From Gordonia pseudamarae (lineage in GTDB: Bacteria > Actinomycetota > Actinomycetes > Mycobacteriales > Mycobacteriaceae): 64,000 nucleotides of DNA. Positions within the stretch are counted from its first letter, which is position 1; each line of letters starts with the position of its first letter. The notes under the pieces are model-generated. The model saw only the letters and a list, made by a program, of their open reading frames with translations, had not been told where the DNA came from and made no database searches. This document shows positions 16,360-63,574 of this stretch, in pieces. The position numbers were made by a program, and so were the translations under genes. The stretch lies in NCBI RefSeq assembly GCF_025273675.1, contig NZ_CP045809.1, positions 930,001 through 994,000 of the forward strand. Reading direction: 5' to 3'.

Positions 16360-17814
16360 ATGACCGTGCAGGATGTGCTCGACGAGCTTCGCGACGTACC
16401 GGGGACGGGGGCGACCATTCCCGTGGTGAGCCCGGTGACCGAGGAACTCATCACCGAGTTCACCGATGCCGGACCGGATGCGGTGAACGCCGCGGTGGCC
16501 AGAGCCAAGGAGACCGCGGATTCGCGGGTGTGGGCGGGCAAGGCAGATTACGAGCGGGCCCGGGTGCTCTGGAAGGTCGCCGACCTGATCGAGGAGAACG
16601 CACCGCTGCTGGCCGAGTTGGAGTCGCTCAACACCGGTATCCCGTCGTTCCAGGCCGAGACCATCACCAAGGTCGGCGCCGAGTGGTTCCGCTACTACGC
16701 CGGCTGGTGCACCAAGGTGTCGGGTATCGCCCGCGACGTGAACACCGGCGGTCTGATGGGCATCGAGTCCCACATGCACGCCTACACGATGAAGGAGCCG
16801 TACGGTGTTGTGGGCCTGATCTTCCCGTGGAACGGACCGGTCTTCAACTACTGCGCCAAGCTCGCGCCCGCGCTGGCCGCCGGCTCCAGCACCGTGGTCA
16901 AGCCGGCCGAGGAGACGCCGCTGTCCGCGCTCGTGTTCGACCGCATCCTGCGCGAGGCCGGTATCCCCGACGGCGTGGTCAACATGGTCAACGGCTACGG
17001 CCATACCGTAGGTGCCCAGATCACCGCACACCCCGATGTGGAGAAGGTCGCGTTCACCGGTTCCACCGAGGTGGGCCGGGAGATCGTCAAAGCCTCCGCG
17101 GCGAGCAATCTCAACAAGGTCACCCTCGAACTCGGCGGCAAGTCGCCGGTGCTCATCTTCGATGACGCCGATCTGGAGAAGGCCATCATGATGGCCGGAA
17201 TCAGCTGCTTCCTGCATTCGGGTCAGGTGTGCATGCTCGGTTCCCGCATCTTCGCCCAGCGTGGCGTGTACGAGCAGGTCGTGGAGGGCGTCGCCAACAT
17301 CGCCAACACCGTCAAGCTCGGCGGACCCGACGAGGAGGGCGCGATGATCGCGCCGATCATCAGCCAGCGCCAGCTCGACCGGGTGATGGGTTACATCGAT
17401 CAGGGCCGTGCCGACGGCGTTGAATACGTCACCGGCGGACATCGGGTGGACCGCACCGGGTACTTCGTGCATCCCACCGTCGCCACCAACCTGGACTCCA
17501 CCAACCGCCTCTACCGCGAGGAGATCTTCGGCCCGGTGGTCACCATCCTCCCGTTCGACGACGAGGACGAGGCCGCGGCGCTGGCCAACGACAGCGACTA
17601 CGGTCTCGCCGGCACCATCTGGACCAAGGATGTCGGCCGTGCGCACCGGATGGCCAAGCGGCTGCAGGCCGGCACCGTCGGCATCAACTGCCAGCTGCAG
17701 TTCGATCATTCGATGCCGTTCGGCGGTTACAAGCAGTCCGGTTGGGGCCATGAGGCCGGCCAGGAAGGCATCGAGATCTACCTCAAGCAGAAGACCATCT
17801 GGGCGCAGATGTAG
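16360..17814 (+). CDS. Aldehyde dehydrogenase (NAD(P)+-dependent, ALDH superfamily)
   Basis: 484 residues, full length. Cofactor segment [32 protein letters not shown], catalytic glutamate in LELGGKSP, and nucleophile Cys291 in HSGQVCMLG are present. Oxidises an aldehyde to the acid. AAAGGAAG is six bases upstream of ATG 16360. First gene of the plus-strand block; only 2 bp separate it from the next gene. TACATAG near 16313 may be its -10 box, divergent from the LLM operon. Confidence 0.95.
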
Positions 17815-17816
17815 CG

Positions 17817-18872
17817 ATGGACTTCGCACTCAGCACAGAGCAACTCGATCTCGCCGACGCCGAGCGGGCGTGGCTGGCCAAACACGATCCGATCCTGCAC
17901 CGGCGGGCGAGTATCGACGACGGCCCGGCCCGGATTCCCGCCGACGCCCGTAAACATGTCGTGGAGTCGGGACTGGCGGGTCTGCTCACCGAGGCCGCCG
18001 GCGGAACCAATGTCGACCTGCTCGTGCTCGCCGAAGAGCACGGGCGGGCGGGCAGCGCGGTTCCGCTCGCGGAGATAGCCATCGCCGCAGCGGTTCTGGA
18101 ACGGATCGGGCATCCGGCGGCCGCCGAGGCGGGCGCCGGCGAAGTGATCGTCATCCCCGTCGCGTCCGCGGGCTCCCTCGACGTGCGGGTGGCCGGAGAT
18201 ACCTTGCAGATCTCCGGAACAACAACGCCGGCAACAGGTCTGGTCGACGCCGACCATGTCCTGCTGCTGGCCGAGACCGATGACGGCCGCGAGGTCGCGG
18301 CCGTCATCGGTGCCGGGGACGTGTCGGTCTCGGTGGCCGACACACTCGATCTGCTGCGGTCCTGGGCCAAGGTCGATGTCGACCTGACGCTCGGGATATG
18401 GCAGTGGTCGTTCGTCCCGGCCGGCACCACCCGTGCGGTGAACGACCAGATCGCGACCTTCCGGGCGGTCGACGCACTCGGCTGCGCCGACCGATTGTTG
18501 CGTATGACCGTCGAATACGCTGGGCAGCGCACCCAATTCGGTTCTGCCATCGGTTCTTTCCAGGCGGTAAAACATCACCTGGCGAATATGGCCGTGGCGG
18601 TGGAGGCCTCGCGGGCGACACTGTGGGCCGCGGCGCTGGCCCTGGATGAGCCGGCCGGGCCGGCGCGGACGCGGGCGGTGTCCTCGGCGGTGGCGTTCGC
18701 CTGCCGCAGCGCGGCCGACGTGGGGCAGCTCGCACTGCAGGTGCACGGTGGGATCGGATTCACCTGGGAACACGACGTGCACCTGCTGATCCGGCGTATC
18801 AAGGTCGATGAACTGCTCGACGGTTCGGTCGGTGAGCATCGCCGGCGCGTCGTGCGGGCGGCCACCGGGTAG
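17817..18872 (+). CDS. Short acyl-CoA dehydrogenase-like protein (possible beta subunit of a heteromeric ACAD)
   Basis: 351 residues. The C-terminal four-helix domain is clear: RTQFGSAIGSFQAVKHHLANM and LQVHGGIGFTWEHDVHLLIRR. The N-terminal and middle regions are short and poorly conserved, and the usual FAD-site motif with SEPGAGSD is missing. This profile fits the non-canonical partner of alpha2beta2 steroid acyl-CoA dehydrogenases such as FadE26-FadE27 and FadE28-FadE29. Likely needs a partner, perhaps the enzyme encoded at 21503. Start 2 bp after the aldehyde dehydrogenase stop. Confidence 0.85.
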   Translation: MDFALSTEQLDLADAERAWLAKHDPILHRRASIDDGPARIPADARKHVVESGLAGLLTEAAGGTNVDLLVLAEEHGRAGSAVPLAEIAIAAAVLERIGHPAAAEAGAGEVIVIPVASAGSLDVRVAGDTLQISGTTTPATGLVDADHVLLLAETDDGREVAAVIGAGDVSVSVADTLDLLRSWAKVDVDLTLGIWQWSFVPAGTTRAVNDQIATFRAVDALGCADRLLRMTVEYAGQRTQFGSAIGSFQAVKHHLANMAVAVEASRATLWAAALALDEPAGPARTRAVSSAVAFACRSAADVGQLALQVHGGIGFTWEHDVHLLIRRIKVDELLDGSVGEHRRRVVRAATG

Positions 18873-18881
18873 CGCGGCCGC

Positions 18882-18887: not shown

Positions 18888-18894
18888 CGCCCGT

Positions 18895-19701
18895 GTGTCA
18901 TCTGATGCGGACCGCGTACGTAAGAGCCTGTCGGCGGGGGTGTCCGTGCGCACCCCCAAGGCCGCCGAACAGATCGCCCGGCACCTACGCGGTCTGATCG
19001 TCCGGGGCGAGACCGCACCCGGCACGATGCTCAGCTCCGAGAAAGCGTTGCTCGACGAGTTCGGTGTTTCCCGACCGACCTTGCGCGAAGCATTCCGCAT
19101 CCTGGAGAACGAGGGGCTGATCGTCGTGCTCACCGGGGCGCGCGGCGGTGCCCGGGTGCAATTGCCCGATCTGGGTGTGGTGTCCCGGCAGATCGGCTAC
19201 TACCTGCAGGCGCAGCAGACCACGTTGCGCGACCTGCTTGAGGCCCGGGCCGAGTTCGAGCCGATCTGCGCGCGGCTGTTGGCCGAACGTCGATCGGATG
19301 ACACCCTCCGCGAGTTGGACGAACTCGTCGCGTCTCTGATCGCCGACGCGGAGAAGGGTTTCGCCACCGGGGCCGAGTATGCCGCCTGGGTGCATTCGAC
19401 GCGTGCGCTCCACGAACTGATCGCCGAAGGCTGCGGCAACAACACCCTCGCCGCGCAGGCGCGGTCGTTGAGCGAGATGCTGGGGGCGCATCGCCGGGTC
19501 AGTCTGCGGTCGGTGGACTACCGGCCGGGGTCTCCCGAAACCATCGCGGAGATCGTGGCCGACTACGCCCGCCTGGCCGAGAACGTGCGGTCCGGCGACG
19601 GTGGCGCCGCCGAGTCGCTGTGGCGCGAGCATCTGCGGCGCTCGACGGAGATCGTCTTCCGTGCCCAGGATCCCGACACGGTGGTCAATCTCCTGGATTG
19701 A
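18895..19701 (+). CDS. FadR/GntR-family transcriptional regulator (FCD domain)
   Basis: 268 residues. Winged helix with PGTMLSSEKALLDEFGVSRPTLREAFRILENEG, followed by an all-helical FCD ligand domain with DLLEARAEFEP and a His/Asp/Arg pattern typical of metal-bound FCD pockets (WVHSTRALHELIAEG). FadR-type proteins of this kind usually sense an acyl-CoA or organic acid and repress catabolic genes. GTG start at 18895 by the leaderless box. It lies in tandem with a paralogue at 19770, inside the degradation block. Confidence 0.92.
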   Translation: MSSDADRVRKSLSAGVSVRTPKAAEQIARHLRGLIVRGETAPGTMLSSEKALLDEFGVSRPTLREAFRILENEGLIVVLTGARGGARVQLPDLGVVSRQIGYYLQAQQTTLRDLLEARAEFEPICARLLAERRSDDTLRELDELVASLIADAEKGFATGAEYAAWVHSTRALHELIAEGCGNNTLAAQARSLSEMLGAHRRVSLRSVDYRPGSPETIAEIVADYARLAENVRSGDGGAAESLWREHLRRSTEIVFRAQDPDTVVNLLD

Positions 19702-19728
19702 GACACCGTCTCGACCCGGGCGCACAGG

Positions 19729-19769: not shown

Positions 19770-20555
19770 ATGGAACAGGCAGTGGCCCCGGCGTTCGCGA
19801 TCCGGAGCGATCCCGAACGTAGGATCCGCACGCCCAAGACCGCCGAGCTGGTGGCGCTCAAGCTGCGTTCGATGATCGTCTCCGGCGAGCTCAAGGACGG
19901 CGACCGCCTCCCCAACGAGGCCGAGCTGATGGAGTTGTTCTCCGTGAGCAGGCAGACGCTGCGTGAGGCGATCCGGGTGCTCGAAGCCGAACGGCTCGTC
20001 GAGGTCCGGCGCGGCTCACGGTCGGGTGCCAAGGTGTGTGTGCCCGGCCCCGAGGTGGTCGCCCGTCCGGCGGCGCTCGTGCTGCAGTTGTCCGAGGCGA
20101 CGGTCGCCGACGTGTACCGGGCGCTGGAGGCCATCGAACCGCCGGCCGCGCGGCTGCTCGCAGAAGAAGGCACGGACGCCGCCTTCGACCAGCTCGAACA
20201 GTTCCTCGACGAGATCCTGCCCGAGGCGTATGCGTCGGGTAGGCTCGGGTCCGCGGCGGCGCAGTTCCACCTGCGGATGGTGCAGTTGTCCGGCAGTGCC
20301 ACGCTCGCCTTGATCGCCGGGATGGTCAACGAGATCCTGGAGCGCAACTACGCCGCGCTCGAACAGGAATACGGCAGCGCGGGCGCCGACAAGAACTATC
20401 GGCTGTTCGTCCGATCGCAGCGCCGGTTCATCAAGCTGCTGCGCGCCCGTGACGGCGCCGGGGCGTTCCACCACTGGCACAAGCACATGGGGGTGGCGCG
20501 CCAGTTCGTGATGCGCGGACGCGAAGACCTGCTCGTGCAGGACCTGCTCGACTGA
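19770..20555 (+). CDS. FadR/GntR-family transcriptional regulator (FCD domain), second copy
   Basis: 261 residues from ATG 19770, which has AAAGAGG eight bases upstream; a leaderless start at GTG 19740 would add ten residues. Winged helix: RLPNEAELMELFSVSRQTLREAIRVLE; FCD domain with VYRALEAIEPPAARLLAEE, FHLRMVQLSGS and HWHKHMGVAR. It shares the RTPKTAE entry segment with the gene at 18895, so the pair looks duplicated. Directly upstream of the crotonase, acyl-CoA dehydrogenase and ligase genes, which are its likely targets. Confidence 0.92.
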   Translation: MEQAVAPAFAIRSDPERRIRTPKTAELVALKLRSMIVSGELKDGDRLPNEAELMELFSVSRQTLREAIRVLEAERLVEVRRGSRSGAKVCVPGPEVVARPAALVLQLSEATVADVYRALEAIEPPAARLLAEEGTDAAFDQLEQFLDEILPEAYASGRLGSAAAQFHLRMVQLSGSATLALIAGMVNEILERNYAALEQEYGSAGADKNYRLFVRSQRRFIKLLRARDGAGAFHHWHKHMGVARQFVMRGREDLLVQDLLD

Positions 20556-20637: not shown

Positions 20638-21435
20638 ATGGATCTCACCTCACCGGATCTCACCGCCCTGACCACGGTGTTGGCCGAACTCGACGAGCAC
20701 GTGCTCACCATCACCCTCAACCGCCCCGAGCGGATGAACTCCTTCACCAACACGATGCGGGCCGAGTTCCGGCAGATCTGGGAGTACGCGCGTGAGACCG
20801 ACGACGTGCACGTGATCGTCCTGCGCGGCGCCGGCGACCGGGCGTTCTCCACCGGCATGGACACCCGTGAGGGCACCTTCATCTCCGAGAATGTCTTCAG
20901 CCGCAGGGATCCCGGAATCGACCTGCAACCCAAGCACAACGGTTGCTGGAAGCCGCTGATCTGCGCCGTACACGGGATGGCCGCCGGCGGCGCGCTGTAC
21001 TGGCTCAACGAGGCCGACATCATCGTCGCCGGCGACGACGCACAGTTCTTCGACCCGCATGTTTCCTACGGCCTGGTCGCCGCCCTCGAACCGATCGGGC
21101 TGGCCCACCGGATCCCGATCGGTGAGGTCCTGCGCATGGTCCTGCTGGGTCTGGATGAGCGGATGTCGGCGCAGCGCGCCTACGAGATCGGGTTCGTCAG
21201 CGAGATCGTCGCCCGCGAAGAGCTGTGGAAACGGGCCGACGTGCTCGCCCGCCGCATCGCCGCCAAACCCGCCGCCGCCATCCAGGGCAGTGTCCGGGCC
21301 ATCTGGGAATCCAAGGACACCGGCCGCACGCAGGCACTGGCCACGGGAATGTCGTACACCTCGCTCGGCAACCCGATCGGGAAGGCGCAGGTGGTGCGTT
21401 CGCAGGTGCCCACCCGCGACTTCGAGGTCCGCTGA
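20638..21435 (+). CDS. Crotonase (enoyl-CoA hydratase/isomerase) family protein
   Basis: 265 residues. ITLNRPERMNSFTN, oxyanion-hole parts RAFSTGMDTREG and GMAAGGALYWLNEADIIV are present. The usual first catalytic glutamate (LPE...) is replaced by DPHVSYGLVAALEP, so it may be an isomerase or hydrolase rather than a hydratase. AAGGAG is five bases before ATG 20638. Begins a plus-strand run with acyl-CoA dehydrogenase, ligase and thiolase. Confidence 0.9.
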   Translation: MDLTSPDLTALTTVLAELDEHVLTITLNRPERMNSFTNTMRAEFRQIWEYARETDDVHVIVLRGAGDRAFSTGMDTREGTFISENVFSRRDPGIDLQPKHNGCWKPLICAVHGMAAGGALYWLNEADIIVAGDDAQFFDPHVSYGLVAALEPIGLAHRIPIGEVLRMVLLGLDERMSAQRAYEIGFVSEIVAREELWKRADVLARRIAAKPAAAIQGSVRAIWESKDTGRTQALATGMSYTSLGNPIGKAQVVRSQVPTRDFEVR

Positions 21436-21502: not shown

Positions 21503-22690
21503 GTGAAGTATGGAATGACCGGTGAGCTCGAGGAATTCCGGGCGCAGGTCCGCGACTTCGTGGAGCGTCAGGCGCCGCCCATCGCTCCGAAGGCGGGGGT
21601 CCGCAGCGCCGAGAACGCCGAAGAACTCGGCCTCCTGAAGGCTTGGACGCGGGACCTGTTCGCCGCGGGCTACTACGGCGGTTCGTGGCCGACCGAGTAC
21701 GGCGGGAACGGGCCCGGACACCAGTTCGAACGCGACGTGATCCTCGGCGAGGAGATCGCTCGCCGACGGGCACCCGCTCCGGTGCAGGGTGCGGCCAATC
21801 TGGTGGCGCACGCCCTCATCGACTTCGGCACCGACGCGCAGAAGGCGGCATACCTGCCGGGGATCCGTTCCGGCGATCTCATCTTCTGCCAGCTGTTCAG
21901 CGAGCCCGGCGCGGGCAGCGACCTGGCGTCGTTGCGCACCAAGGCGATCGCGCAGGACGGCGGCGGTTTCCGGATCTCCGGGCAGAAGGTGTGGACCACC
22001 AACGGGCATTGGTCCGACTACGGCTACCTGCTGGCCCGTACCGATCCGGATGCGCCGAAGCACAAGGGCATCAGCGCGTTCATCATCGACATGAAGACGC
22101 CCGGGGTGGATGTGCGGCCGCTGCGGGAGATGACCGGCACCGCCGATTTCAACGAGGTGTTTCTCGACGACGTCGTGGTGCCGGCCGATGCGTTGATCGG
22201 CACCACGGGCGACGGATGGCGCATCGCCAACTCCAGCCTCGGCCACGAGCGGGCCGGTGTGGCGTCCAATGCCGTTCGCCTGCAACGCAACATCGACGCA
22301 CTCCACGAACTCGCCGGTTCCGTGCGGCGCGGCGACGGATGTGCCATCGACGACGCCGCGGTGCGCGATCGGCTCGGGGAGCTCGCCGCATCGGTGGATG
22401 CGCTCTCGGCGTTGGTTTATGCGTCGCTGACCAGGGCATCGCGGGGCGATCAACGACCCCACGACGCACCGATGACCAAACTGATGTTCAGTGAGCTCGG
22501 CGTCGAGATCGCCGCTTTCGGGCTGGAGCTGTGCGGTGAGGCGGGGGTGGTCACCGGCGGTACGTGTGCCGTCGACAACGGTCGCTGGCAGGACGAATTC
22601 CTGTACGCCCGTGCCTACACCATCGCCGGCGGCAGCTCAGAGATCATGCGCAACATCATTGCCGAACGTGGACTCGGCCTGCCCCGCTAG
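21503..22690 (+). CDS. Acyl-CoA dehydrogenase
   Basis: 395 residues. FSEPGAGSDLASL and GQKVWTTNGHWSDYG form the FAD and substrate pocket, and the C-terminus ends in YTIAGGSSEIMRNIIAERGLGLPR. The MCAD-type catalytic glutamate position in the last helix is Ala/Gly here, as in FadE17-like and steroid side-chain enzymes. GTG 21503 is used; ATG 21515 is an alternative, and neither has a strong ribosome site. It could be the alpha partner of the short ACAD-like protein at 17817. Confidence 0.92.
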   Translation: MKYGMTGELEEFRAQVRDFVERQAPPIAPKAGVRSAENAEELGLLKAWTRDLFAAGYYGGSWPTEYGGNGPGHQFERDVILGEEIARRRAPAPVQGAANLVAHALIDFGTDAQKAAYLPGIRSGDLIFCQLFSEPGAGSDLASLRTKAIAQDGGGFRISGQKVWTTNGHWSDYGYLLARTDPDAPKHKGISAFIIDMKTPGVDVRPLREMTGTADFNEVFLDDVVVPADALIGTTGDGWRIANSSLGHERAGVASNAVRLQRNIDALHELAGSVRRGDGCAIDDAAVRDRLGELAASVDALSALVYASLTRASRGDQRPHDAPMTKLMFSELGVEIAAFGLELCGEAGVVTGGTCAVDNGRWQDEFLYARAYTIAGGSSEIMRNIIAERGLGLPR

Positions 22691-22718: not shown

Positions 22719-24290
22719 GTGACAGTAACACCCGACGTGACAGAGCAGGACGCGCCGGCCGGAATCAGGTCGGCGCTGCGTGAACTCTGGTCCGCACCCG
22801 ACGATGCCCGCATGATCCAGCAGTCCGGCAGCTGGCACACCTGGGGCGAGGTGCGCGCCCTGGCCGAAGCCATCACCGGTGAACTCGACCGGATCGGGGC
22901 CGGGCAGGGTGCCCGGGTCGGCGTGGTGCTGAGCAACAGTATGCCCTCGGTTGCCGCGCTGGCCGCAATCCTGAGCACCGGCCGCACCATCGTCACCCTC
23001 AACCCGATGCAGCCCGCCGCCCGCGTGGCCCGCGACCTGGCCAACAGTGCACCCGACGTGGTCCTGGCCCCCCGCGAATCCTGGTCGGCCGCCGAGTTCC
23101 GGGATGCGGTGACCCGCCTCGCGATCTCCGGCTATTCTTTCGCCGACGCCGCGTTGATCTCCGAGACCGAGGCTCCCGTGAAGCAGGGGGCCGCGAAACC
23201 CGAAGCCGCCACCGCCGCCCGCGGCACAGTCGCGATCGAGATGTTCACCTCCGGGACCACCGGTGCGCCCAAACGTATCCCGCTGAGCTGGCGGCAACTC
23301 GATTCCACCCTCGCGGCCGTCCACGCCCGTGTGGCGCAGCCCGAACAGCGCCCGGCGCCGCTGACCGGCCGGGTCGCGCTGGTGACCCTGTCGATGGTGC
23401 ATATCGGCGGCATGTGGGGTGTGCTGCAGGCGCTGTCGGAGGCGCGGCCCTTCGTGCTGCTCGAACGCTTCACCGTCGAGGGCTGGACGGCGGCGATCGA
23501 GGAACATCAGCCGCGCATCGCGAGTCTGCCTCCGGCGGCCATGCGCTCGGTGCTGAGCGCGCGGGTTCCGGCGACCCGGCTGAGCAGCCTGCGCGCGGTC
23601 ACCGCGGGCACCACCTTCGTCAGCCCCGATCTGGCCGACGAGTTCATCGGCCGCTACGGCATTCCCGTGCTCATCGTGTACGGCGCCACCGAGTTCTCCG
23701 GTGCGGTGGCCGGCTGGACCAAGCCGATGCACAACGAGTGGTGGGCGCGTAAACGCGGCAGCGTGGGCCGGCCTTTCCCCGGTGTGTCGATGCGGACCGT
23801 CGACGACTCCGGCGCAGTGCTGCCCGCCGGTGAGGCCGGGCGACTCGAAGTCCGTTCGGGCCAGACGGTTTCCGGTGCCGACGGCTGGGTCCGCACCAGC
23901 GACCTCGCCCATCTCGACGACGACGGCTTCCTGTTCATCGACGGCCGCGCCGACGATGCCATCGTGCGCGGCGGATTCAAGGTGCAGCCCGAGGTGGTGG
24001 CCGACGCGCTGCGCGCCCACGAGGCGATCCTGGACGCCACCGTCTACGGTCGTGCCGACGAGCGACTCGGCCAGGTGCCGGTGGCCGTCGTCGAATGGGT
24101 ACCGGGGGCGACCTCCGTCGCGGAGGCCGAGCTGAAGGAGTTTCTGCGCGGCCACCTCACCGCGTACGAGATTCCGGTGACCATTCACGGTGTCGACGCG
24201 CTGCCGCGCAGTGCCTCGCTGAAGGTGGACCGGCGCAGGCTTCTTGAGATGGTCGCCGATATCGAAGCAGCACAAGGAAATCAGGAGTAG
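22719..24290 (+). CDS. AMP-forming acyl-CoA synthetase (ANL superfamily)
   Basis: 523 residues. ATP loop EMFTSGTTGAPKRIPL, YGATEFSG, motor domain GWVRTSDLAHLDDDGFLFIDGR and the C-terminal lysine in RSASLKVDRR are present. Activates a carboxylic acid to its CoA thioester through an acyl-AMP. GTG 22719 with GGAGAG four bases upstream. Last residues overlap nothing; thiolase follows after 4 bp, so the three genes form one transcript. It is the only acid-CoA ligase in the window, hence the likely gateway from the oxidised substrate to beta-oxidation. Confidence 0.94.
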   Translation: MTVTPDVTEQDAPAGIRSALRELWSAPDDARMIQQSGSWHTWGEVRALAEAITGELDRIGAGQGARVGVVLSNSMPSVAALAAILSTGRTIVTLNPMQPAARVARDLANSAPDVVLAPRESWSAAEFRDAVTRLAISGYSFADAALISETEAPVKQGAAKPEAATAARGTVAIEMFTSGTTGAPKRIPLSWRQLDSTLAAVHARVAQPEQRPAPLTGRVALVTLSMVHIGGMWGVLQALSEARPFVLLERFTVEGWTAAIEEHQPRIASLPPAAMRSVLSARVPATRLSSLRAVTAGTTFVSPDLADEFIGRYGIPVLIVYGATEFSGAVAGWTKPMHNEWWARKRGSVGRPFPGVSMRTVDDSGAVLPAGEAGRLEVRSGQTVSGADGWVRTSDLAHLDDDGFLFIDGRADDAIVRGGFKVQPEVVADALRAHEAILDATVYGRADERLGQVPVAVVEWVPGATSVAEAELKEFLRGHLTAYEIPVTIHGVDALPRSASLKVDRRRLLEMVADIEAAQGNQE

Positions 24291-24294
24291 CGAC

Positions 24295-36397: not shown

Positions 36398-37470
<1,073 letters not shown>

Positions 37471-37471
<1 letters not shown>

Positions 37472-38319: not shown

Positions 38320-38331
38320 GGAGAAACTGCT

Positions 38332-53135: not shown

Positions 53136-53293
53136 GCGTTCGCCCTTCGCTGTATTCGGGGTTGTCCGCACGCGGGTTTCATCATCACGCGGGTGAGGCC
53201 GAACCTAATCCGGCGCGGCGGGCCGGGCCGGTGGGGGTCTCGCTCAGCGGAAGAATCACCCGCCGCCGGCAGCGTGGTCGGCACACTGTGCCG

Positions 53294-55956: not shown

Positions 55957-56730
55957 TCAGACCAGCACGGGCAGCTGGTTCTCGGCGGCTTCCTTCTCTT
56001 CGGAGTCGACGGCCTTGAGCAGCAGCAGAGGCGTCGAGATCTTCCACACCGCGTACGCCAGGCAGGGCAGCCAGAAGGCGAACAGGCCGTTCCAGGCGAG
56101 CGGGCCGTCCTTGAACAGGTAGATGAACGCACCGGGCGCGAGGACTATCGCCAGCATGAAGTTGACGTAGGCGAACCAGCGCGGGAACACCGGCTCGGTG
56201 CGCTTGTCGATGAGCGTGGCCCAGCCCAGGCACACGCATTGCAGGCAGAAGATGAACGCGAAGCCCACGTACGAGAAGTAGAAGATGTCGGTCATCAACT
56301 GCAGGATCTCCGGCGAGCGTTCTTCGACCCGGTATGCCGCGGCCGACAGTATGAACATCGGATAGAAGAATCCGATCGGCGCGACCACACCCATCAGGAC
56401 CTGGTTCATCGTCAGCACGCCCCAGCCGCGCTCGATGCGGCGCATCTGCCAGCTCGTGGTCACGACGAAGAAGTATTCGAGCGGGATCACGAACGAGCAG
56501 ATCACCGTCGTCCACAGGATGCCGGCCCGGTTGTCGATCATCCATTCTTTGACCTGGTCCGCGGTCGACTGAGGATCCAGCGGCGGCTGAACCTTGGACA
56601 GCATGAAGAAGCAGCCGCCCTGGACGGCCATCACCAGGAAGCCCGACCATGCTGAGAATCGCTGGAACTTGTACAGATATGACTTGTCGACCGCGAATTC
56701 GGCCGGTGGTGGTGCCTCTTGAATGCTCAC
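55957..56730 (-). CDS. Multi-pass membrane protein of unknown function
   Basis: 257 residues from GTG 56730 with AAAGGAG nine bases upstream; the frame is open further upstream to 56853 without supporting signals. About six hydrophobic helices (for example FSAWSGFLVMAVQGGCFFML, ILWTTVICSFVIPLEYFFVV, IGFFYPMFILSAAAY, YVGFAFIFCLQCVCLGWATL). Not recognised as a transporter family. Convergent to the KstD-like gene and divergent from the extradiol dioxygenase, so it may help uptake or exclusion of the hydrophobic substrate, as a guess. Confidence 0.75.
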   Translation of the reverse strand: MSIQEAPPPAEFAVDKSYLYKFQRFSAWSGFLVMAVQGGCFFMLSKVQPPLDPQSTADQVKEWMIDNRAGILWTTVICSFVIPLEYFFVVTTSWQMRRIERGWGVLTMNQVLMGVVAPIGFFYPMFILSAAAYRVEERSPEILQLMTDIFYFSYVGFAFIFCLQCVCLGWATLIDKRTEPVFPRWFAYVNFMLAIVLAPGAFIYLFKDGPLAWNGLFAFWLPCLAYAVWKISTPLLLLKAVDSEEKEAAENQLPVLV

Positions 56731-56936
56731 GGCACGGATCTCCTTTGCTCGCTGGGAACCCAGGTCGCCGCGCCTGTCCGCGATGACCTTGTGTCCCACA
56801 GTGTGGTGGCGAAGGTCCGTACCTGCGGTTGCCTTCCCGGTGAGCGAGATCACTGCTTATGCAACATATTCGACCAAATCTAGGGTCATCGGCATACATC
56901 GGACACCTGTTGTCGAAAGTGTGAGGAGATCTGACC

Positions 56937-57968
56937 ATGGCAATTGAATTGCCCCCGTACCGCCCCCAACTCGCCCAATGCGGTGCGGTCGCGCTGGGTA
57001 CCCCGCAGCTCGAGGTCTCGCTGAGCTTCTTCCGTGACACCCTGGGCATGGAGGAGGTGGAGCGCGTCGGCGACACCGTCTATCTGCGGGGGTACCAGGA
57101 GCTCAAGCACCATTCGCTGGTGCTGTTCCAGAGCGACACCGCCACGGTCGACTCCTACAGTTTCCGGGTTTCCCGGCCCGAGGACGTCGAACTGTTCTAC
57201 AACCAGCTCCTCGCCGAAGAGGTAGAGGTGGTGGAACTGCCGTCCGGACATCAGGCCGGCCGCGGCACCGCGATCCGCTTCGTCGTTCCGCACGCCGGGC
57301 ACACGTTCGAGCTGTACTACGACATCGATGCCCCGGAGGCTCCCGAGGAAATCCGGTCGAGGCTGCTGAGCAACTCCTCACGCCGTCGCGGGCTCGGCGT
57401 GCGCCGGCTCGATCACTACAACATCCAGGCCGGCTTCGACAACATCGGCAAGGCTGAGCAGTGGCTGCAGGATTCGCTGGGCTTCAAGCGGCGTGAGTTC
57501 GTGCACGTGCCCGATCACCCCGAGATGCTGGTCGCATCGTGGTCGGCCGTCACCTCGCAGGTGCACGACCTGGCGATCGCGATGAGCTTGAACAACAAGG
57601 ACAATCAGCTGCACCACATCGCGTTCAACCTGGAGAACCACAGCGACCTGCTGGTCGCCGCCGACACCCTTCGCGACCTGGATGTGCATTTCAACTGCGG
57701 CCCGGGCAAGCACGGTGTCGGCCAGGCGATGTACCTGTACCTACGTGAGCCGGGCTCGGGACACCGCATCGAGCTGTACTCGGGCGGCTACCACATCTTC
57801 GATCCGGACTGGAAGGCGCTGGGCTGGGATATGACCAATGGCGACGGCTCGACCTGGTTCGGCCAGGAACTCGACGTCACCATGGGCGGCGAGATGGCCA
57901 CCTCCACCGATTCGGTGTCTTCGCTGACATCGCTGATCGGGCAGAAGGACGCGGCTCCCGTGGCCTGA
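56937..57968 (+). CDS. Extradiol ring-cleavage dioxygenase, catechol 2,3-dioxygenase type (VOC fold)
   Basis: 343 residues, two VOC modules. Fe(II) ligands: His160 in RRLDHYNIQ, His226/227 in LHHIAF, and Glu279 in HRIELYSGGY. Cleaves a catechol next to the hydroxyl pair (meta cleavage). It looks like catechol 2,3-dioxygenases more than HsaC, judged by the N-terminal sequence. GAGGAG precedes ATG 56937. The hydrolase for its product is at 52272. Followed by two flavin monooxygenase genes in one operon. Confidence 0.93.
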   Translation: MAIELPPYRPQLAQCGAVALGTPQLEVSLSFFRDTLGMEEVERVGDTVYLRGYQELKHHSLVLFQSDTATVDSYSFRVSRPEDVELFYNQLLAEEVEVVELPSGHQAGRGTAIRFVVPHAGHTFELYYDIDAPEAPEEIRSRLLSNSSRRRGLGVRRLDHYNIQAGFDNIGKAEQWLQDSLGFKRREFVHVPDHPEMLVASWSAVTSQVHDLAIAMSLNNKDNQLHHIAFNLENHSDLLVAADTLRDLDVHFNCGPGKHGVGQAMYLYLREPGSGHRIELYSGGYHIFDPDWKALGWDMTNGDGSTWFGQELDVTMGGEMATSTDSVSSLTSLIGQKDAAPVA

Positions 57969-58020: not shown

Positions 58021-59334
58021 ATGGCAGGACAACGGTATTTGCATTTGAATCTCGTGGGCAACGAGATCAACAACCACCAGGGCGCGCTCGCCTACGAACG
58101 CGACCACGGCGGTGGGCCGGACCGGCAGAACGCCTATCTGCCGATCTCGGAGATGGGCAAGGCCGCCGAGGAGGGTTACTTCACGGCGATGTTCCTGGGC
58201 GACATCGCCGGTACCGCCGGCTCGCCCGCCCCCGATGGCGGCCCGCCCGAACCCATCACCGCGTTCGCGGCGCTGGCCCGTGAAACCTCGTACCTGGGAC
58301 TGATCGCCACGGCGTCATGCTCGTTCTACGACCCGTACAACCTGGCCCGGCTGCTGGCCTCGATCGACCAGATCTCGGACGGCAGAGCGGGATTCAACGC
58401 CGTCACCAGCGTGAGTGACGAGTGGGCGCAGAACTACAGCATGGAGGCGCACCTGGACCGGATCACCCGGTACAAGCGCGCCGACGAGTTTCTCGACATT
58501 GTGACCGCCCTGTGGGAGAAGCGTGAGGTCCGGATCGACGCCGACCAGATCAAGCGCTTCTACTCCGAACAGATCAACCATCGCGGCGACTTCTTCCAGG
58601 TGCTCGGACCGCTGAATGTGGCACCCAGCCCCCAGGGTCGGCCGCTCATCGCGCAGGCCGGCGGATCGGGTCCGGGCATCGCGGTCGCCGCCAAGCACGC
58701 CGAGATGGTGTTCACCAACGCCACCACCCGGCAACAGGCGGCCGACTACCGCGCCGAACTCGACGCGGCCCTGGTGGCCCGCGGCCGTGCCGCGGGCAGT
58801 GTGCCGGCGATCCCAGGCCTGGTTCCCTACCTGGGCAAGACCCGGGCCGAGGCCGAGGAACTGATGCGTGCCCTCGACGAGAACGTGCCGTACGAGTTGT
58901 ACGCCCCGTTCGCGCTGGTGCAGTTTGGGCTGGACTTCACCTTCGACAGTATCGACGATCCGTTCCCGCTCGATCAGATCCCGCACCCGGAGACGGTCAA
59001 GGACACCATCAAGAGCACCTACGGCAACTACCTGGGTCTCTACAACTGGATCGCCGAGAACCCCGGTGCCACGGTCCGCGACGTCACCGCGCAGTCGCTG
59101 GCGCGCGGTGGTGCCCAGCATCGCAAGTTCGTCGGCAGCTACGACGAGTTCGTCGACGACCTCGCGCTGTGGCACGCGGACGGACAGATCGGCGGCTTCA
59201 ACCTGATGTTCCCCACCAACGTGATCGGTGTGCGGGACTTCGTGGCCGAGGTGGTTCCTCGTCTGATCGATCGCGGCATCTACCGCGGCAAGCCGGACAC
59301 CCGGCCGCTGCGTGAGCGTTTCGCGGGAGAGTGA
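58021..59334 (+). CDS. LLM-class flavin-dependent monooxygenase, NtaA/DszA-type
   Basis: 437 residues. RYLHLNLVGNEINN, FTAMFLGDIAG, EPITAFAALARETSYLGLIATASCSFYDPYNLAR, DGRAGFNAVTS and RPLIAQAGGSGPGIAVAA place it in the NTA monooxygenase subgroup. Needs reduced flavin from a reductase; the HsaB-like protein could serve. AGGGAA upstream of ATG 58021. Between the extradiol dioxygenase and the Baeyer-Villiger monooxygenase genes; family members can oxygenate cyclic ketones or sulfur rings. Substrate unknown. Confidence 0.92.
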   Translation: MAGQRYLHLNLVGNEINNHQGALAYERDHGGGPDRQNAYLPISEMGKAAEEGYFTAMFLGDIAGTAGSPAPDGGPPEPITAFAALARETSYLGLIATASCSFYDPYNLARLLASIDQISDGRAGFNAVTSVSDEWAQNYSMEAHLDRITRYKRADEFLDIVTALWEKREVRIDADQIKRFYSEQINHRGDFFQVLGPLNVAPSPQGRPLIAQAGGSGPGIAVAAKHAEMVFTNATTRQQAADYRAELDAALVARGRAAGSVPAIPGLVPYLGKTRAEAEELMRALDENVPYELYAPFALVQFGLDFTFDSIDDPFPLDQIPHPETVKDTIKSTYGNYLGLYNWIAENPGATVRDVTAQSLARGGAQHRKFVGSYDEFVDDLALWHADGQIGGFNLMFPTNVIGVRDFVAEVVPRLIDRGIYRGKPDTRPLRERFAGE

Positions 59335-59339
59335 GCGCC

Positions 59340-61208
59340 GTGACAGCAGCCGAACTCACCGACCCCGGGCCGCAGCCGGACGGCTATGACCGGGACTGGG
59401 TGCGAGCCAAGTACGCCTTCGAGCGGGCCAAGCGTCTGCGCCGTGACGGCCTCGACCAGTTCGTCGAGGTCACCGCGGAGTTCTCGCACTACGCCGACGA
59501 CCCGTACACCGAACGCGTCGAACGCGAACCCGTCGACGACCAGGTGCAGGTTCTGGTGATCGGTGCCGGACTCGGCAGCCTGATCGCCGCGGTCCGGCTG
59601 CGCGAGGCCGGCTTCGACGACATCCGGATGGTCGACAAGGCCGGCGACGTGGGCGGAACCTGGTACTGGAACCGGTATCCCGGTGCCCAGTGTGACGTCG
59701 AGGCATACGTGTATATGCCGTTGCTGGAGGAACTCGATTACATTCCCGAACGCAAGTACGCGTTCGGGCCCGAGATCCGCAAGCACTGTGTGCGCATCGC
59801 CGAAAAGTATGACCTGTACCGCAATTCGCTGTTCCAGACCGCCGTCACCGGGATGGAGTGGAACGAGGGGGCGGCCGGAGACGGCAGTGCGGTAGACAGC
59901 AAGGCGGCCGGAAGCTGGACGGTCACCACTGACCGCGGCGACACCATCACGGCGTCCATCGTCGTGGTATCGCCGGGGCCGCTGAGCCGTCCGAAACTCC
60001 CCGGTATCCCCGGAATCAACGAGTTCGCCGGACATACCTTCCACACCAGCCGGTGGGACTACGGCTACACCGGCGGCGGCGAAGAGGACTGGGAGCTGAC
60101 CAAGCTGGCCGACAAGACGGTCGGCATCGTCGGCACCGGTGCGACCGCGTTGCAGTGTGTGCCGCACACCGGGCGTTTCGCCAAACAGTTGTACGTGTTC
60201 CAACGTACCCCGGCCGCCGTCGACGTGCGTGGCGATCACCCCACCCCTCCCGAATTCGCGGCGGGTCTCAAGCCCGGTTGGCAGAAGGAGCGGATCGAGA
60301 ACTTCACCCACTGGACCTCCGGGACCGGTGCAGAGGTGGATCTGGTCTCGGACGGCTGGACCAAGGTGTCCAACGACCTGACCACACCGGCGGTGCTGCG
60401 GGAGATGGCGCGGCGCACCGAACCGATGACGATGGAGGACATCGGCGAATTCCTCTACGAAGAGGACTTCAAGTCGATGCAGAATGTGCGCGCGCACATC
60501 GCCGACATCATCGATGATCCGGAGACCGCCAAGGCCCTGACACCCTGGTACAAGCGGATGTGCAAGCGGCTCAGCTTCCACGACAGCTACCTGCAGACGT
60601 TCAACAGAGACAATGTGGCACTCGTGGACACCGACGGTCAGGGCATCGAACGCCTCACCACCGACGGTGTGGTGGTGAACGGAACCGAGTACAAGGTCGA
60701 CGCGCTGATCTTCGCGACAGGCTTCGAGGTAGGCACGAACTACACCAAACGCGCGGGCTTCGACATCGTGGGCCGCAACGGGATCAAGCTCAGCGACAAG
60801 TGGGCCAAGGGGCCGCGGACATTGCACGGCCTGCAGAGCCACGACTTTCCCAACTGCTTCTTCCTCGGATACACGCAGTCCGGTATCGCACCGAACTACG
60901 TGCACACCGCGGAGGAACGGGCCGGTCATCTGGCCTACATCCTGGGACGGTGGCGTGAACTCGGCGGTGGCGTGATCGAGGCCGAGCAGGACGCGGAGGA
61001 CCAGTGGTGCACCGCGATGGCCGACAGCACCGTGGTGGGCAAGCAGTTCTTCCTCGATTGCACCCCCAGCTACCTGGATTCCGAAGGTGACAACGAGAAC
61101 CCGGACAGCCTGTTGGTCGCCGGATACGGTGGCGGGCCGATCGCGTTCTTCGACATTCTCAAGCAGTGGCGTGAGGCGGGGGATATGGCCGGGGTGTCGG
61201 TGCGCTGA
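59340..61208 (+). CDS. Baeyer-Villiger monooxygenase (class B flavoprotein)
   Basis: 622 residues from GTG 59340 (GGGAG ten bases upstream); GTG 59331 is the alternative. First FAD motif VIGAGLGSLIAAVRLREAG, fingerprint FAGHTFHTSRW at residues 229-239 (FxGxxxHxxxW), second nucleotide motif VGIVGTGATALQCV. Converts a ketone to an ester or lactone with NADPH and O2. The ~65-residue N-terminal extension is typical of cyclopentadecanone/4-hydroxyacetophenone-type enzymes. Five bp behind the LLM gene, in the operon starting at 56937. It could open an alicyclic ring. Confidence 0.94.
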   Translation: MTAAELTDPGPQPDGYDRDWVRAKYAFERAKRLRRDGLDQFVEVTAEFSHYADDPYTERVEREPVDDQVQVLVIGAGLGSLIAAVRLREAGFDDIRMVDKAGDVGGTWYWNRYPGAQCDVEAYVYMPLLEELDYIPERKYAFGPEIRKHCVRIAEKYDLYRNSLFQTAVTGMEWNEGAAGDGSAVDSKAAGSWTVTTDRGDTITASIVVVSPGPLSRPKLPGIPGINEFAGHTFHTSRWDYGYTGGGEEDWELTKLADKTVGIVGTGATALQCVPHTGRFAKQLYVFQRTPAAVDVRGDHPTPPEFAAGLKPGWQKERIENFTHWTSGTGAEVDLVSDGWTKVSNDLTTPAVLREMARRTEPMTMEDIGEFLYEEDFKSMQNVRAHIADIIDDPETAKALTPWYKRMCKRLSFHDSYLQTFNRDNVALVDTDGQGIERLTTDGVVVNGTEYKVDALIFATGFEVGTNYTKRAGFDIVGRNGIKLSDKWAKGPRTLHGLQSHDFPNCFFLGYTQSGIAPNYVHTAEERAGHLAYILGRWRELGGGVIEAEQDAEDQWCTAMADSTVVGKQFFLDCTPSYLDSEGDNENPDSLLVAGYGGGPIAFFDILKQWREAGDMAGVSVR

Positions 61209-61363: not shown

Positions 61364-61387
61364 TTCAAGATAGGACGCGGGCAGCAG

Positions 61388-62620
61388 ATGAGAACTAAGA
61401 GGATGCGTGCGGTGGTGGCCTCGGCCGCCGTTGCGGTGGTTGCGACCGCCGGTCTGGCCGCCTGCGGTAGCGACGACGACGATTCGACCGGATCGTCGTC
61501 GGCATCGGTGACCGCGCCGGAGGGATCCTTCCCCGGCAAGGCGGCCTCCGGCGCACCGGTGAAGATCGGTCTGATCAACCCCGAAGGCGGTCCGGCGATC
61601 TCGATGCCGGAGAACCGTGCGGCGGCCGAGGCGGCGACCACGTACGCCAACGAGAACCTCGGCGGTATCGGCGGCCGGCCCATCGAGCTGGTGGTCTGCA
61701 AGAACAAGGAAGACACCGCCTCGGCCCGCGAATGCGCCAACCAGATGGTCGAGGCCAAGGTGAGCGCCGTGGTGGTGACCGCCACGTCGATGAGCACGGT
61801 GATGGCACCGATCATCACCAAGGCCGGGATCCCCTACACCGCGGTGGCGGGCGCCGGTTCGGAGATCATGTCGGACAACGCCTTCATCTGGTCGGGTGCC
61901 TCGGGTGCCTACCAGTACATGGCCAAGTTCTCGGCCCAGGAGAATCTCAAGAGCGTGACGGCCTACGCCATCGACGTTCCGGCGAGCCTGACCGGACTGC
62001 AGATGGTGGCGACCCCCGCGTTCAAGGCCGCCGGCATCGACTTCAAGATCGTGCGGATCCCGGCCGGCACCCCCGAGGTGACACCGCAGGTGAGTGCGGG
62101 TCTGACGGACAAGACCGACGGCGTCATCGTCATCGGCAACACCGCGATGTGTACGGCCGTGTTCAAGTCCCTGGGCACGCTGGGGGCGGACGTCAAGAAG
62201 ATGACGCCGCAGTCCTGCGCCGACGCCCAGGTGTACAAGTCGGTGGGTGACTCGCTCAACGGCACGCAGGTCTTCACCACCGCCGACACCCGTTCCGACG
62301 ATCCGGAAAGCCAGTTGTACCGGGCCGTGATGGACAAGTACACGCCCGAGACCGACGCACACGGATACGCCGTTTCCGGCTATCAGGGCGTCCTCGGACT
62401 GGTGCGGGCCACCGAATCGCTGGACGGTTCGGACACCTCGCCCGCAGCCGTGATCACGGCGATCACAACCGCCAAGGACGTGAAATTGCCCGCTGCACAC
62501 GGTCTTACCTTCACCTGTGACGGAACCGCACAGCCGCAGTTCAAGGCGGTCTGCGGTAAGGGCATGATCGTGGTCAACCTGGAGCAGGGCATCGCCACCG
62601 ATCTGCAGGTCGTTCAGTAG
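61388..62620 (+). CDS. Branched-chain amino acid-type ABC substrate-binding lipoprotein, third copy
   Basis: 410 residues. RTKRMRAVVASAAVAVVA then lipobox LAAC at about residue 26 and an acidic linker GSDDDDS. KIGLINPEGGPAISMPENRAAAEAA, VVVTATSMSTVMAPIITKAGIPY and GYAVSGYQGVLGLVRATES match the proteins at 29801 and 34907. No permease or ATPase gene is nearby, so it would have to use the fused transporter at 31973 or one outside the window. Ribosome site is weak (AGGA 12 bases upstream of ATG 61388). Confidence 0.93.
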   Translation: MRTKRMRAVVASAAVAVVATAGLAACGSDDDDSTGSSSASVTAPEGSFPGKAASGAPVKIGLINPEGGPAISMPENRAAAEAATTYANENLGGIGGRPIELVVCKNKEDTASARECANQMVEAKVSAVVVTATSMSTVMAPIITKAGIPYTAVAGAGSEIMSDNAFIWSGASGAYQYMAKFSAQENLKSVTAYAIDVPASLTGLQMVATPAFKAAGIDFKIVRIPAGTPEVTPQVSAGLTDKTDGVIVIGNTAMCTAVFKSLGTLGADVKKMTPQSCADAQVYKSVGDSLNGTQVFTTADTRSDDPESQLYRAVMDKYTPETDAHGYAVSGYQGVLGLVRATESLDGSDTSPAAVITAITTAKDVKLPAAHGLTFTCDGTAQPQFKAVCGKGMIVVNLEQGIATDLQVVQ

Positions 62621-62677
62621 CCGCACACCGATGAACGCGGCTGAGGAGAATTCCTCAGCCGCGTTCGTGTGTGCGGC
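62620..62677. terminator. Two-level hairpin terminator after the third binding-protein gene
   Basis: Inner perfect 15-bp stem 62633-62647 with 62652-62666, outer 9-bp stem GCCGCACAC (62620-62628) with 62669-62677. Next gene converges, so it can stop both strands. No long T run. Confidence 0.75.
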
Positions 62678-62779
62678 TATTCGGTTGTGTACGTCGATAT
62701 CAGTGAATTCTCATTCGCAGGAGAGGAATTCGCAGGAGTAGAGGTGGGGATTCGCGGTGATGATCGAGCTTCTATGCGG

Positions 62780-63574
62780 TCACCAGGTCGCGGTACCGGC
62801 GGCGAGTGCGTCGGAGATGGTGCGCGCGGCATGAAGAACCAGCGGCGCGATCGGCTCCAGCGGGGCATCGGCGCGCGCGGCAACGGAGATGGCGCCCACC
62901 GGACCGTCATTGCTGCGCACCGCCGCGCCCACGCAGGCCAGTCCGGGAATCAGCTCGCCACGTTCGACCGCGAGGCCGTTGCGCGAGCGGATACGGGCCA
63001 GTTCGCGGTGGAGCGCGTCGACATCATCGATGGTCTGGACAGCACCGGTGCCGCGTGCGGCGTTCATGATCTGGTTGTCGACGTACTCGGGAGCCATGCC
63101 GGCCATGATCGCCTTGCCGGCGGCGGTGCGGTGGGCCGGTGCCCGGCCGCCCACCCGGGAGCTGAGCCGGTGTTCGGGACGGCCGCCGAACATGTCGAGG
63201 TAATAGATCTCGGTGCCGGCGAGCGTGACCAGGTGGGTACACGCGCCGGTGCGATAGGCGAGTGCCTGTAGGACACCCGAGGCGGCCGAACGCAGTTCGT
63301 GCTGAGCGAGTTCCCGTCCACCCAGGGTCAGCGCCCGGCTGCCGAGGCTGTAATGGGTCTTGGCGTGGATCAGCCAGCGGCACTGCACCAACTGGTCGAG
63401 GATGCGATGCGCCGTCGACCTCGGCAGACCGGTGTGGCGGGTGACCTCGTCGAGCGTGAGTCGCGCCAGGGGCTTGTCGAAGGCCTCCATGATCAGCGTC
63501 ATCCGCTCCACCATCGACAGCGGGAGGTTGGACTGGGGGGCGATGTCGGTGTCGTTCTCCAGCAGAGCGGTCAT
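62780..63574 (-). CDS. IclR-family transcriptional regulator
   Basis: 264 residues. N-terminal winged helix with MVERMTLIMEAFDKPLARLTLDEVTRHTGLPRSTAHRIL, ligand domain with GSRALTLGGRELAQHE, HRTAAGKAIMAGM and AVRSNDGPVGAISVAARAD. IclR proteins usually activate or repress aromatic and organic-acid catabolism. GGAGGGAA six bases before ATG 63574; the ATG overlaps the stop of the upstream ribB-like gene (ATGA). Candidate regulator of the adjacent catabolic island. Confidence 0.94.
   Translation of the reverse strand: MTALLENDTDIAPQSNLPLSMVERMTLIMEAFDKPLARLTLDEVTRHTGLPRSTAHRILDQLVQCRWLIHAKTHYSLGSRALTLGGRELAQHELRSAASGVLQALAYRTGACTHLVTLAGTEIYYLDMFGGRPEHRLSSRVGGRAPAHRTAAGKAIMAGMAPEYVDNQIMNAARGTGAVQTIDDVDALHRELARIRSRNGLAVERGELIPGLACVGAAVRSNDGPVGAISVAARADAPLEPIAPLVLHAARTISDALAAGTATW

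Follow-up and report, generated by a model that had tools for sequence, protein, structure and literature searches.

A conserved catabolic superlocus with steroid-like ring-cleavage logic in Gordonia pseudamarae

The cholesterol 9,10-seco pathway joins KstD-type desaturation, HsaAB-type hydroxylation, extradiol cleavage and HsaD-type hydrolysis to cytochrome P450 oxidation, beta-oxidation and Mce-type import. In addition, one study describes steroid-like clusters of Rhodococcus jostii, cluster 2 and pRHL1, which carry paralogous steroid-ring genes without an assigned function or known substrate (PMC4810484). Here we analyzed a 64,000-nucleotide stretch of the closed Gordonia pseudamarae genome (5,147,008 bases; contig NZ_CP045809.1, bases 930001-994000), referred to as the window, whose interval 16360-63574 (counted from the first letter of the window) holds a large catabolic island sharing these traits with the cholesterol pathway, Mce-type import being encoded just outside the window. 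The host, a Gordonia, is a bacterium of soil or sludge. The interval makes up the larger share of a single conserved catabolic superlocus, which extends rightward past the window, and the island is a defined relative of the Rhodococcus clusters without assigned function. With a probability of roughly 0.7, we read it as a real and coherent unit encoding a new variant of steroid-like ring catabolism, probably directed at a hydrophobic alicyclic substrate.

Unlike the cholesterol pathway, the island has no match to KshA or HsaC, its HsaA, HsaB and HsaD relatives score under the steroid cut-offs, and it contains an extradiol enzyme resembling catechol 2,3-dioxygenase (C23O), together with an added Baeyer-Villiger monooxygenase (BVMO) and an NTA-type monooxygenase. 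The resemblance to pRHL1 is likewise partial: KstD-like and BVMO-like genes lie near each other there as well, but the best matches of a 49.5 kb stretch to genes in and around the window reach only 25-38% identity, and the gene set differs.

Gene calling from codon usage yielded 41 open reading frames (ORFs; g12-g52) in the interval, corresponding to 40 genes, with g22 and g23 being halves of one thiolase. When an ORF was counted as present at at least 50% identity over half its length, seven other Gordonia genomes retained 38-39 of the 41 in collinear order over 46-57 kb, while two genomes from other genera, G170 and G314 (115 kb examined in each), retained 34 ORFs in 72 kb and 31 in 62 kb, respectively, in an order differing from that in Gordonia. 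These counts are minima, as the greedy assignment dropped the g28 relative of G041, which is broken into two pieces; the count for G004 joins two contigs. Control stretches of the G. pseudamarae genome gave 0 of 41 (canonical steroid stretch, 38 kb), 0 of 41 (58 kb to the right) and 3 of 41 (a steroid-like cluster at 4.9 Mb). The six blocks delineated in the original prediction thus represent one conserved set with steroid-like ring logic, distinct from the canonical steroid pathway, and they are not scattered in any of these nine genomes. Since gene order differs in G170 and G314 while content stays similar, the comparison argues for shared function over mere inheritance of a neighbourhood.

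Complementarily, we searched 381 genomes of the family with the P450 g32, the phenol hydroxylase g42 and the KstD-like dehydrogenase g46, scoring the best three to four candidates per genome and placing the thresholds for a close ortholog at gaps in the match lists. A close ortholog of g46 was present in just 11 genomes, namely eight Gordonia and G170, G311 and G314 from three other genera, and all 11 also carry the hydroxylase, so that the island is not a chance assembly. Identity to g42 was at least 73% in ten of them, the eleventh, G041, having a split copy; in G311, a fragmented and 74%-complete genome of which 18 kb was examined, the hydroxylase lies on a separate contig. G041 has other split genes, and its sequence may therefore be poor. 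The P450 occurred at 66% identity or more in 10 of the 11 (not in G311) and in no other genome searched, with relatives at 58-61% in three further family genomes; for g42, some match, paralogs included, was found in 183 of the 381. Within Gordonia, orthologs of the extradiol enzyme g48 were found at 77-100% identity in 8 of 59 genomes (its own counted), all other matches remaining at or below 34%, and g32 orthologs (75-100%) in the same eight, plus one at 59% in G038. Between the window and Gordonia amarae, the extradiol enzymes share 92% identity, and named matches at 76-81% are also from Gordonia.

The island comprises 28 enzymes or electron carriers, five transport proteins, three regulators and four small or membrane proteins; the figure of about 35 catabolic genes given earlier therefore holds only if transport and regulation are included. 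Family scans recovered the predicted coenzyme A (CoA) activation and beta-oxidation functions (CoA ligase, CoA transferase, acyl-CoA dehydrogenases, hydratases and thiolases) and also confirmed the P450, the KstD-like and HsaA-, HsaB- and HsaD-like proteins, the BVMO and the ATP-binding cassette (ABC) importer. The features, including short-chain dehydrogenases/reductases (SDRs), are as follows, with window coordinates and strand.

g12, 16360..17814 (+), aldehyde dehydrogenase; PF00171, 529 bits
g13, 17817..18872 (+), acyl-CoA dehydrogenase-like protein; PF00441
g14, 18940..19701 (+), GntR/FCD regulator; PF00392, PF07729
g15, 19770..20555 (+), GntR/FCD regulator; PF00392, PF07729
g16, 20638..21435 (+), enoyl-CoA hydratase family; PF00378
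g17, 21515..22690 (+), acyl-CoA dehydrogenase; PF00441, PF02770, PF02771
g18, 22737..24290 (+), acyl-CoA ligase; PF00501
g19, 24295..25473 (+), thiolase; PF00108, PF02803
g20, 25570..26799 (+), type III CoA transferase; PF02515
g21, 26813..27031 (+), small ferredoxin, probable P450 partner; PF13459, adjoins the P450 module in G170 and G314
g22/g23, 27089..28221 (+), thiolase in two overlapping ORFs; single ORF in six of seven relatives
g24, 28262..29425 (+), acyl-CoA dehydrogenase; family scan
g25, 29801..31024 (-), ABC substrate-binding lipoprotein, branched-chain amino acid type; PF13458
g26, 31224..31976 (-), ABC ATPase; PF00005
g27, 31973..34768 (-), fused ABC permeases and ATPase; PF02653 twice, PF00005
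g28, 34907..36160 (-), ABC substrate-binding lipoprotein; PF13458
g29, 36449..37471 (+), nitronate-monooxygenase-family flavoprotein; PF03060
g30, 37471..38247 (+), enoyl-CoA hydratase family; family scan
g31, 38332..40599 (+), fused double acyl-CoA dehydrogenase; family scan
g32, 40950..42167 (-), cytochrome P450; P450cam/P450cin/CYP143-like by PDB match
g33, 42225..43073 (-), 3-hydroxyisobutyrate-dehydrogenase-like protein; TIGR01692 at 88 bits, under cut-off; PF03446, PF14833
g34, 43159..44685 (-), aldehyde dehydrogenase; family scan
g35, 44696..45553 (-), mycofactocin-coupled SDR; TIGR03971 passed, 332.4 bits (cut-off 300)
g36, 45899..47089 (+), Amidohydro_2 hydrolase; PF04909
g37, 47109..47384 (+), small protein without family match; kept next to g36 in the gene-order comparison
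g38, 47341..48651 (+), MaoC/FAS1-type dehydratase; PF13452 passes its cut-off, PF01575 does not
g39, 48682..49449 (+), SDR, probable 3-hydroxyacyl-CoA dehydrogenase; family scan
g40, 49446..50225 (+), enoyl-CoA hydratase family; NF006100 passed, 347.6 bits (cut-off 282)
g41, 50400..50894 (-), HsaB-like flavin reductase; NF045630 at 162.5 bits, cut-off 230 missed
g42, 50956..52146 (-), HsaA-like phenol hydroxylase oxygenase; NF045629 at 348 bits, cut-off 450 missed
g43, 52272..53171 (-), HsaD-like C-C hydrolase; NF045632 at 296.5 bits, cut-off 400 missed
g44, 53294..53905 (+), COX3-like membrane protein; PF00510
g45, 53975..54211 (+), COX4-like membrane protein; PF03626
g46, 54256..55857 (+), KstD-like FAD dehydrogenase; family scan and alignment to a solved delta-1-ketosteroid dehydrogenase (delta-1-KSTD)
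g47, 55957..56853 (-), membrane protein for which no Pfam family passes its cut-off; adjoins the KstD-like gene in Kineosporia, too
g48, 56937..57968 (+), two-domain extradiol dioxygenase, C23O-like; TIGR03211 cut-off missed
g49, 58054..59334 (+), NtaA/DmoA-family FMN monooxygenase; TIGR03860 passed, 322 bits (cut-off 279.7), as expected of the NTA-type enzyme predicted
g50, 59331..61208 (+), Baeyer-Villiger monooxygenase; closest solved structure 5mq6 at 431.8 bits, the next at 257.6
g51, 61403..62620 (+), ABC substrate-binding lipoprotein; family scan
g52, 62780..63574 (-), IclR regulator; PF01614, PF09339

The ring enzymes are related to those of steroid catabolism, but form lineages of their own. 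Alignment of g46 to a solved delta-1-KSTD revealed three tyrosines and one glycine to be kept at four positions that we take to be catalytic in that enzyme, a further likeness to the cholesterol pathway. The two-component flavin hydroxylase g42 matched 2or0 best among solved relatives (475 bits, versus 261 for the 3-HSA hydroxylase); in a tree with canonical HsaA on a very long branch, it formed a clade with the island copies of other genera (100/100 support), apart from canonical HsaA. For the hydrolase g43, HsaD (NF045632) was the best model, though below its cut-off. Overall, g41, g42 and g43 missed the steroid cut-offs, whereas the canonical HsaA, HsaB and HsaC of the same genome pass theirs.

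The extradiol enzyme g48 has invariant H160, H227 and E279 in 16 of 16 aligned sequences, residues which we take to be the metal ligands. Its likeness to catechol 2,3-dioxygenase was noted correctly in the original prediction, but membership of that family was rejected, as TIGR03211 gave 238.8 bits with 320.2 needed; by its profile score, g48 is a relative of the C23O enzymes and not a scored member. No HsaC model appeared among its profile matches at E<=1e-8. In G170 and on a Streptomyces plasmid, an HsaC-like extradiol enzyme (44% and 40% identity) replaces g48, which is why g48 probably performs an HsaC-like reaction; this replacement, together with the HsaD-like nature of g43, favours a 3-substituted catechol as the likely ring-cleavage substrate. 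Moreover, since a KshA ortholog was not found in the examined stretches of G170, G314, Streptomyces and Kineosporia, the comparison suggests that ring opening is independent of a linked 9-alpha-hydroxylase, although an unlinked one may take part. Judged by these genes, the route resembles steroid A-ring logic, yet is separate from it, with a module lacking KshA and ring enzymes of separate lineages.

Directly 5' of the KstD-like gene, the COX3/COX4-like pair g44/g45 is found in the Gordonia islands as well as in G170 and G314. No other oxidase subunits accompany the pair in the island, and genome-wide there are six COX3 matches, g44 among them; the two membrane proteins could serve as electron acceptor for the adjacent dehydrogenase. 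The membrane protein g47 also travels with the KstD/extradiol module, Kineosporia included.

The original prediction had listed kshAB, hsaC, mce4 and kstR as absent, which stands for the interval itself as far as KshA and HsaC are concerned: neither query returned a match there (>40% of query length, E<=1e-6), while KshB and KstR were not searched as such. However, KshA, HsaA, HsaC and HsaB genes lie only 14-19 kb left of the window start, and an Mce operon starts 12 kb right of its end. The former belong to a canonical steroid cluster at 911-916 kb, the second cluster for which a check had been advised, with KshA (Lf18, at 911 kb) reaching 278 bits for PF19298 and HsaA (683.8 bits, cut-off 450), HsaC (547, cut-off 450) and HsaB (270.9, cut-off 230) all passing. 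A KstD passing its cut-off (969.9 versus 788) is located at 761-763 kb; after it, at 763-766 kb, come an acylating aldehyde dehydrogenase and an aldolase that both pass their cut-offs and a hydratase that does not. Yet another steroid-like cluster, the third, occupies 4.90-4.94 Mb; with genes named from matches to the canonical and island sets, it contains KshA-, HsaA-, HsaB-, HsaC-, HsaD- and KstD-like genes and two BVMO-like genes; the stretch 4900001-4939000 also holds a P450, a regulator resembling IclR and an ABC importer that shares 57-58% identity with g26/g27. In G013, G041 and G049, relatives of the KshA- and HsaC-like genes of this third cluster flank the island on its left.

The right boundary had been drawn too narrowly. 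Beyond the window, at 994.7-1016.8 kb, follow a fused type III CoA transferase, a hydratase-family gene, a TetR-like regulator, SDRs, two P450s, a second KstD-like dehydrogenase (R08) and the Mce operon, in which profiles identified two MlaE permeases and five Mce proteins, a sixth matching only weakly. Orthologs of R08 at 72-100% identity occur in exactly those 8 of 59 Gordonia genomes (its own counted) that have the island; in 39 further Gordonia genomes, matches merely reach 42-46% at the limit used. These genes succeed the island in largely the same order in the six relatives compared, with R09-R10 inverted in five, and the Mce genes continue the island in five of the six, G037 being the one in which they are not adjacent. 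The aldehyde dehydrogenase gene g12 sits behind the Mce operon in G049, G013, G025 and G041, and at the left edge in G. amarae, like in the window. Because the right-flank genes travel with the island in relatives, we consider the working unit to span about 70 kb, from 16360 to about 86765 in window coordinates, and thus to take in the second KstD-like gene, both P450s and the Mce operon. Mce importers are linked with lipids; this one is among several Mce groups of the genome, in which 45 matches to the Mce4_CUP1 family in separate groups indicate many parallel importers.

Comparison across genera separates a core from accessory parts. Counterparts of g49, g50, g51 and g12 at 50% identity are lacking in the G170 and G314 clusters. 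For g49 and the BVMO g50, no match was obtained in the examined stretches of G170, G314 and the Streptomyces plasmid, where a different annotated LLM-class gene is present, and Kineosporia offers only a 30% BVMO match to g50; among the loci compared, orthologs of both are confined to Gordonia. Nor were Mce genes seen in the 115 kb examined of G170 or of G314. By this distribution, the BVMO, the NTA-type monooxygenase and the Mce operon look like Gordonia additions; the two monooxygenases are unsuited for inferring the core substrate. At the minimal end, Kineosporia mesophila has a ring module with relatives of g48 (73%), g52, g43, g42, g41, g46 and g47, accompanied by an aldolase, an acylating aldehyde dehydrogenase and a hydratase-family gene. 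The Streptomyces plasmid unites a KstD-like gene (63%), hydrolase, extradiol enzyme and lower pathway, and adds an amidohydrolase, mycofactocin SDR, ferredoxin, P450 and beta-oxidation genes. In the window, in G170 and G314 and on the Rhodococcus plasmid BH4, the P450 gene is grouped with those for a mycofactocin SDR and an aldehyde dehydrogenase.

Relatives of g48 at 58-62% identity on alphaproteobacterial plasmids were considered as a substrate clue and set aside: they sit with FAD monooxygenases and lower meta-pathway genes, no HsaAB match was found in the two stretches examined, and given this different company they say little about the substrate. On the Sinorhizobium (L009) and Aminobacter (L010) plasmids, both typed conjugative, the relatives (59-62%) lie beside lower meta-pathway genes and adjoin a group II intron or insertion sequence (IS) element.

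Several observations concern individual genes. The thiolase g22/g23 is intact as one ORF of 377-393 amino acids in six of seven island relatives and likewise split in G041; in the host genome, it may be a pseudogene or a sequence error. The flavoprotein g29 is 41% identical to the genome's other copy at 890 kb, which has IpdAB/EchA20-like genes as neighbours. Just 5' of g31, several near-identical direct repeats of about 19-20 bases each occupy 38248-38331. Left of the island, at 12960-16160, a TauD-like dioxygenase (g09) and luciferase-like monooxygenases (g10, g11) were called from sequence alone; this group looks like sulfur-source utilisation and lies outside the island.

Taken together, the gene set would fit a route for a hydrophobic compound that combines a six-membered alicyclic ring with an alkyl group. 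Each step is assigned from enzyme families, while gene content, linkage, conservation and the kept catalytic positions of g46 were observed directly. Uptake would proceed via the ABC system of g25-g28 and g51, supplemented in Gordonia by the neighbouring Mce importer. The recurrent grouping of P450, mycofactocin SDR and aldehyde dehydrogenase suggests oxidation of the alkyl group to an acid, with g32 and its ferredoxin g21 hydroxylating it and SDR g35 and aldehyde dehydrogenase g34 completing the conversion. After presumed CoA activation by g18/g20, beta-oxidation could employ the dehydrogenases g13, g17, g24 and g31, the hydratases g16, g30, g38 and g40, the 3-hydroxy dehydrogenases g33 and g39 and the thiolases g19 and g22/g23. 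The KstD-like g46, in Gordonia perhaps together with R08, would desaturate a ring ketone (cyclohexanone) to a phenol, which g42/g41 would ortho-hydroxylate to a catechol for extradiol cleavage by g48; hydrolysis of the cleavage product by g43 would yield a 2-hydroxydienoate plus an acyl fragment. The dienoate would then pass to a hydratase, aldolase and acylating aldehyde dehydrogenase, whose genes adjoin the ring module in Kineosporia and Streptomyces, unlike in this genome, where they are found at 763-766 kb; the g29-g31 set may finish the remaining acid. Most likely, the substrate is a hydrophobic alicyclic, probably terpenoid-like compound. A more specific version, which we hold only tentatively, is a complete, undescribed pathway that mineralises a polycyclic compound of terpenoid type alongside steroid catabolism, comprising KstD-like aromatisation without 9-alpha-hydroxylase, meta-cleavage, a dedicated Mce importer and a Gordonia Baeyer-Villiger branch.

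We found no characterised equivalent in the open-access literature (subscription journals were mostly outside the search), and the described candidates fit in part. The ipp cluster for 2-isopropylphenol in Rhodococcus sp. D-6 similarly follows a two-component, HsaAB-related phenol hydroxylase with an extradiol enzyme, but uses para-hydroxylation to hydroquinone, has eight genes and an IppA1 only 32% identical to HsaA; with no KstD-like gene in its available gene table, membership was rejected (PMC12442392). The estrogen-type aed cluster for the 4,5-seco pathway in Rhodococcus sp. B50, considered for its pairing of P450 and extradiol enzyme, was not adopted: compared by its description, it differs in using a P450 as phenol hydroxylase, and the accessible text mentions no KstD-like, HsaAB-like or HsaD-like member (PMC12507874). 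Among the plasmid relatives closest to g32 (best 15 of 1274) and g46 (best 15 of 335), strain B50 did not appear.

It is nevertheless conceivable, if unlikely, that the locus serves a steroid after all, as a parallel cluster for one particular steroid, for instance an estrogen, a bile acid or a 19-nor or otherwise altered sterol, that shares KshAB or later steps with the canonical cluster. In favour of this are the canonical KshA/HsaABC cluster nearby, the KshA-bearing cluster, like the 4.9-Mb one, left of the island in G013, G049 and G041, the Mce operon and the HsaA/B/D- and KstD-related enzymes. An actinobacterial estrogen cluster is described as coupling P450, extradiol enzyme and beta-oxidation genes (PMC12507874), and among the steroid-ring proteins of actinobacteria, a third subclade is reported that has no assigned function (PMC4810484). 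On the other hand, neither the island nor the examined stretches of G314, Streptomyces and Kineosporia hold a KshA ortholog, G170 contributing one 25% Rieske match; g41, g42 and g43 fall under equivalog cut-offs that canonical HsaA and HsaB pass; and the Kineosporia ring module brings its own lower pathway without KshA. Also unlikely is a narrower case of the alicyclic pathway, in which a monocyclic naphthenic or alkyl-cyclohexane acid undergoes KstD-like aromatisation as for cyclohexanecarboxylate (chc), with a meta- instead of ortho-cleavage ending. The chc route shares the logic of an SDR and a KstD-type desaturase converting a cyclohexanone to a phenol, and the minimal Kineosporia module would fit a monocyclic ketone, but the weak matches of g46 to both desaturases, ChcC1/ChcC2 (250.7 and 205.4 bits), and of two island SDRs to the corresponding dehydrogenases, including ChcB (108 and 117 bits), are far under the curated cut-offs of 1000, 900, 400 and 350 (NF053676, NF053677, NF053701, NF053702), and chc membership was rejected. 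Furthermore, the HsaD-like hydrolase points to a 3-substituted catechol, the BVMO groups with 5mq6, a polycyclic-ketone monooxygenase, and Mce importers are associated with lipids.

Several points weigh against a single coherent pathway. Common ancestry may account for the presence of the island across the Gordonia species. The g25-g28 importer is missing from G314 and g48 from G170; in both genomes, the g52-like regulator reaches only 37-39% identity and g14 just under 50%. As no g41 or g42 match was found in the Streptomyces cluster, the set is not constant there. In the stretches examined, the Rhodococcus plasmids BH4 and GD02 carry beta-oxidation, P450, g29-g31 and ABC parts (the P450 on BH4; g29-g31, g36-g38 and g16-g19 on GD02) without the KstD/HsaAB module, so that such parts can exist on their own and could act on different substrates. 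A dyad scan of 21 upstream regions, two of which (g23, g38) are actually coding sequence, performed no better than shuffles, 53 of 200 of which attained its best count of 3, and a footprint across 24 gene heads showed nothing common between heads; with neither yielding a shared operator, co-regulation is unproven. Finally, we know of no substrate-specific homolog, and the thiolase g22/g23 is split in this genome. Some of these observations would suit a catabolic hot spot, in which independent modules lie side by side with no common substrate, as sub-blocks do occur apart on the Rhodococcus plasmids and three different regulators come without a shared operator. This appears improbable, given that the same 31-34 ORFs stay together, reordered, in two other genera and that the three markers are found jointly in 10-11 of the 381 family genomes.

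Several steroid-like clusters without assigned substrates occur in actinobacteria, and the island is well suited in practice to working out what they consume, owing to its conserved extent, an expressible minimal core (g41, g42, g43, g46 and g48 plus a lower pathway), the closed genome of its host and the independent versions that other genera carry. Possible diets include terpenoids and naphthenic pollutants in sludge. HsaA- or KstD-type matches in Gordonia, in turn, need not signal cholesterol use.

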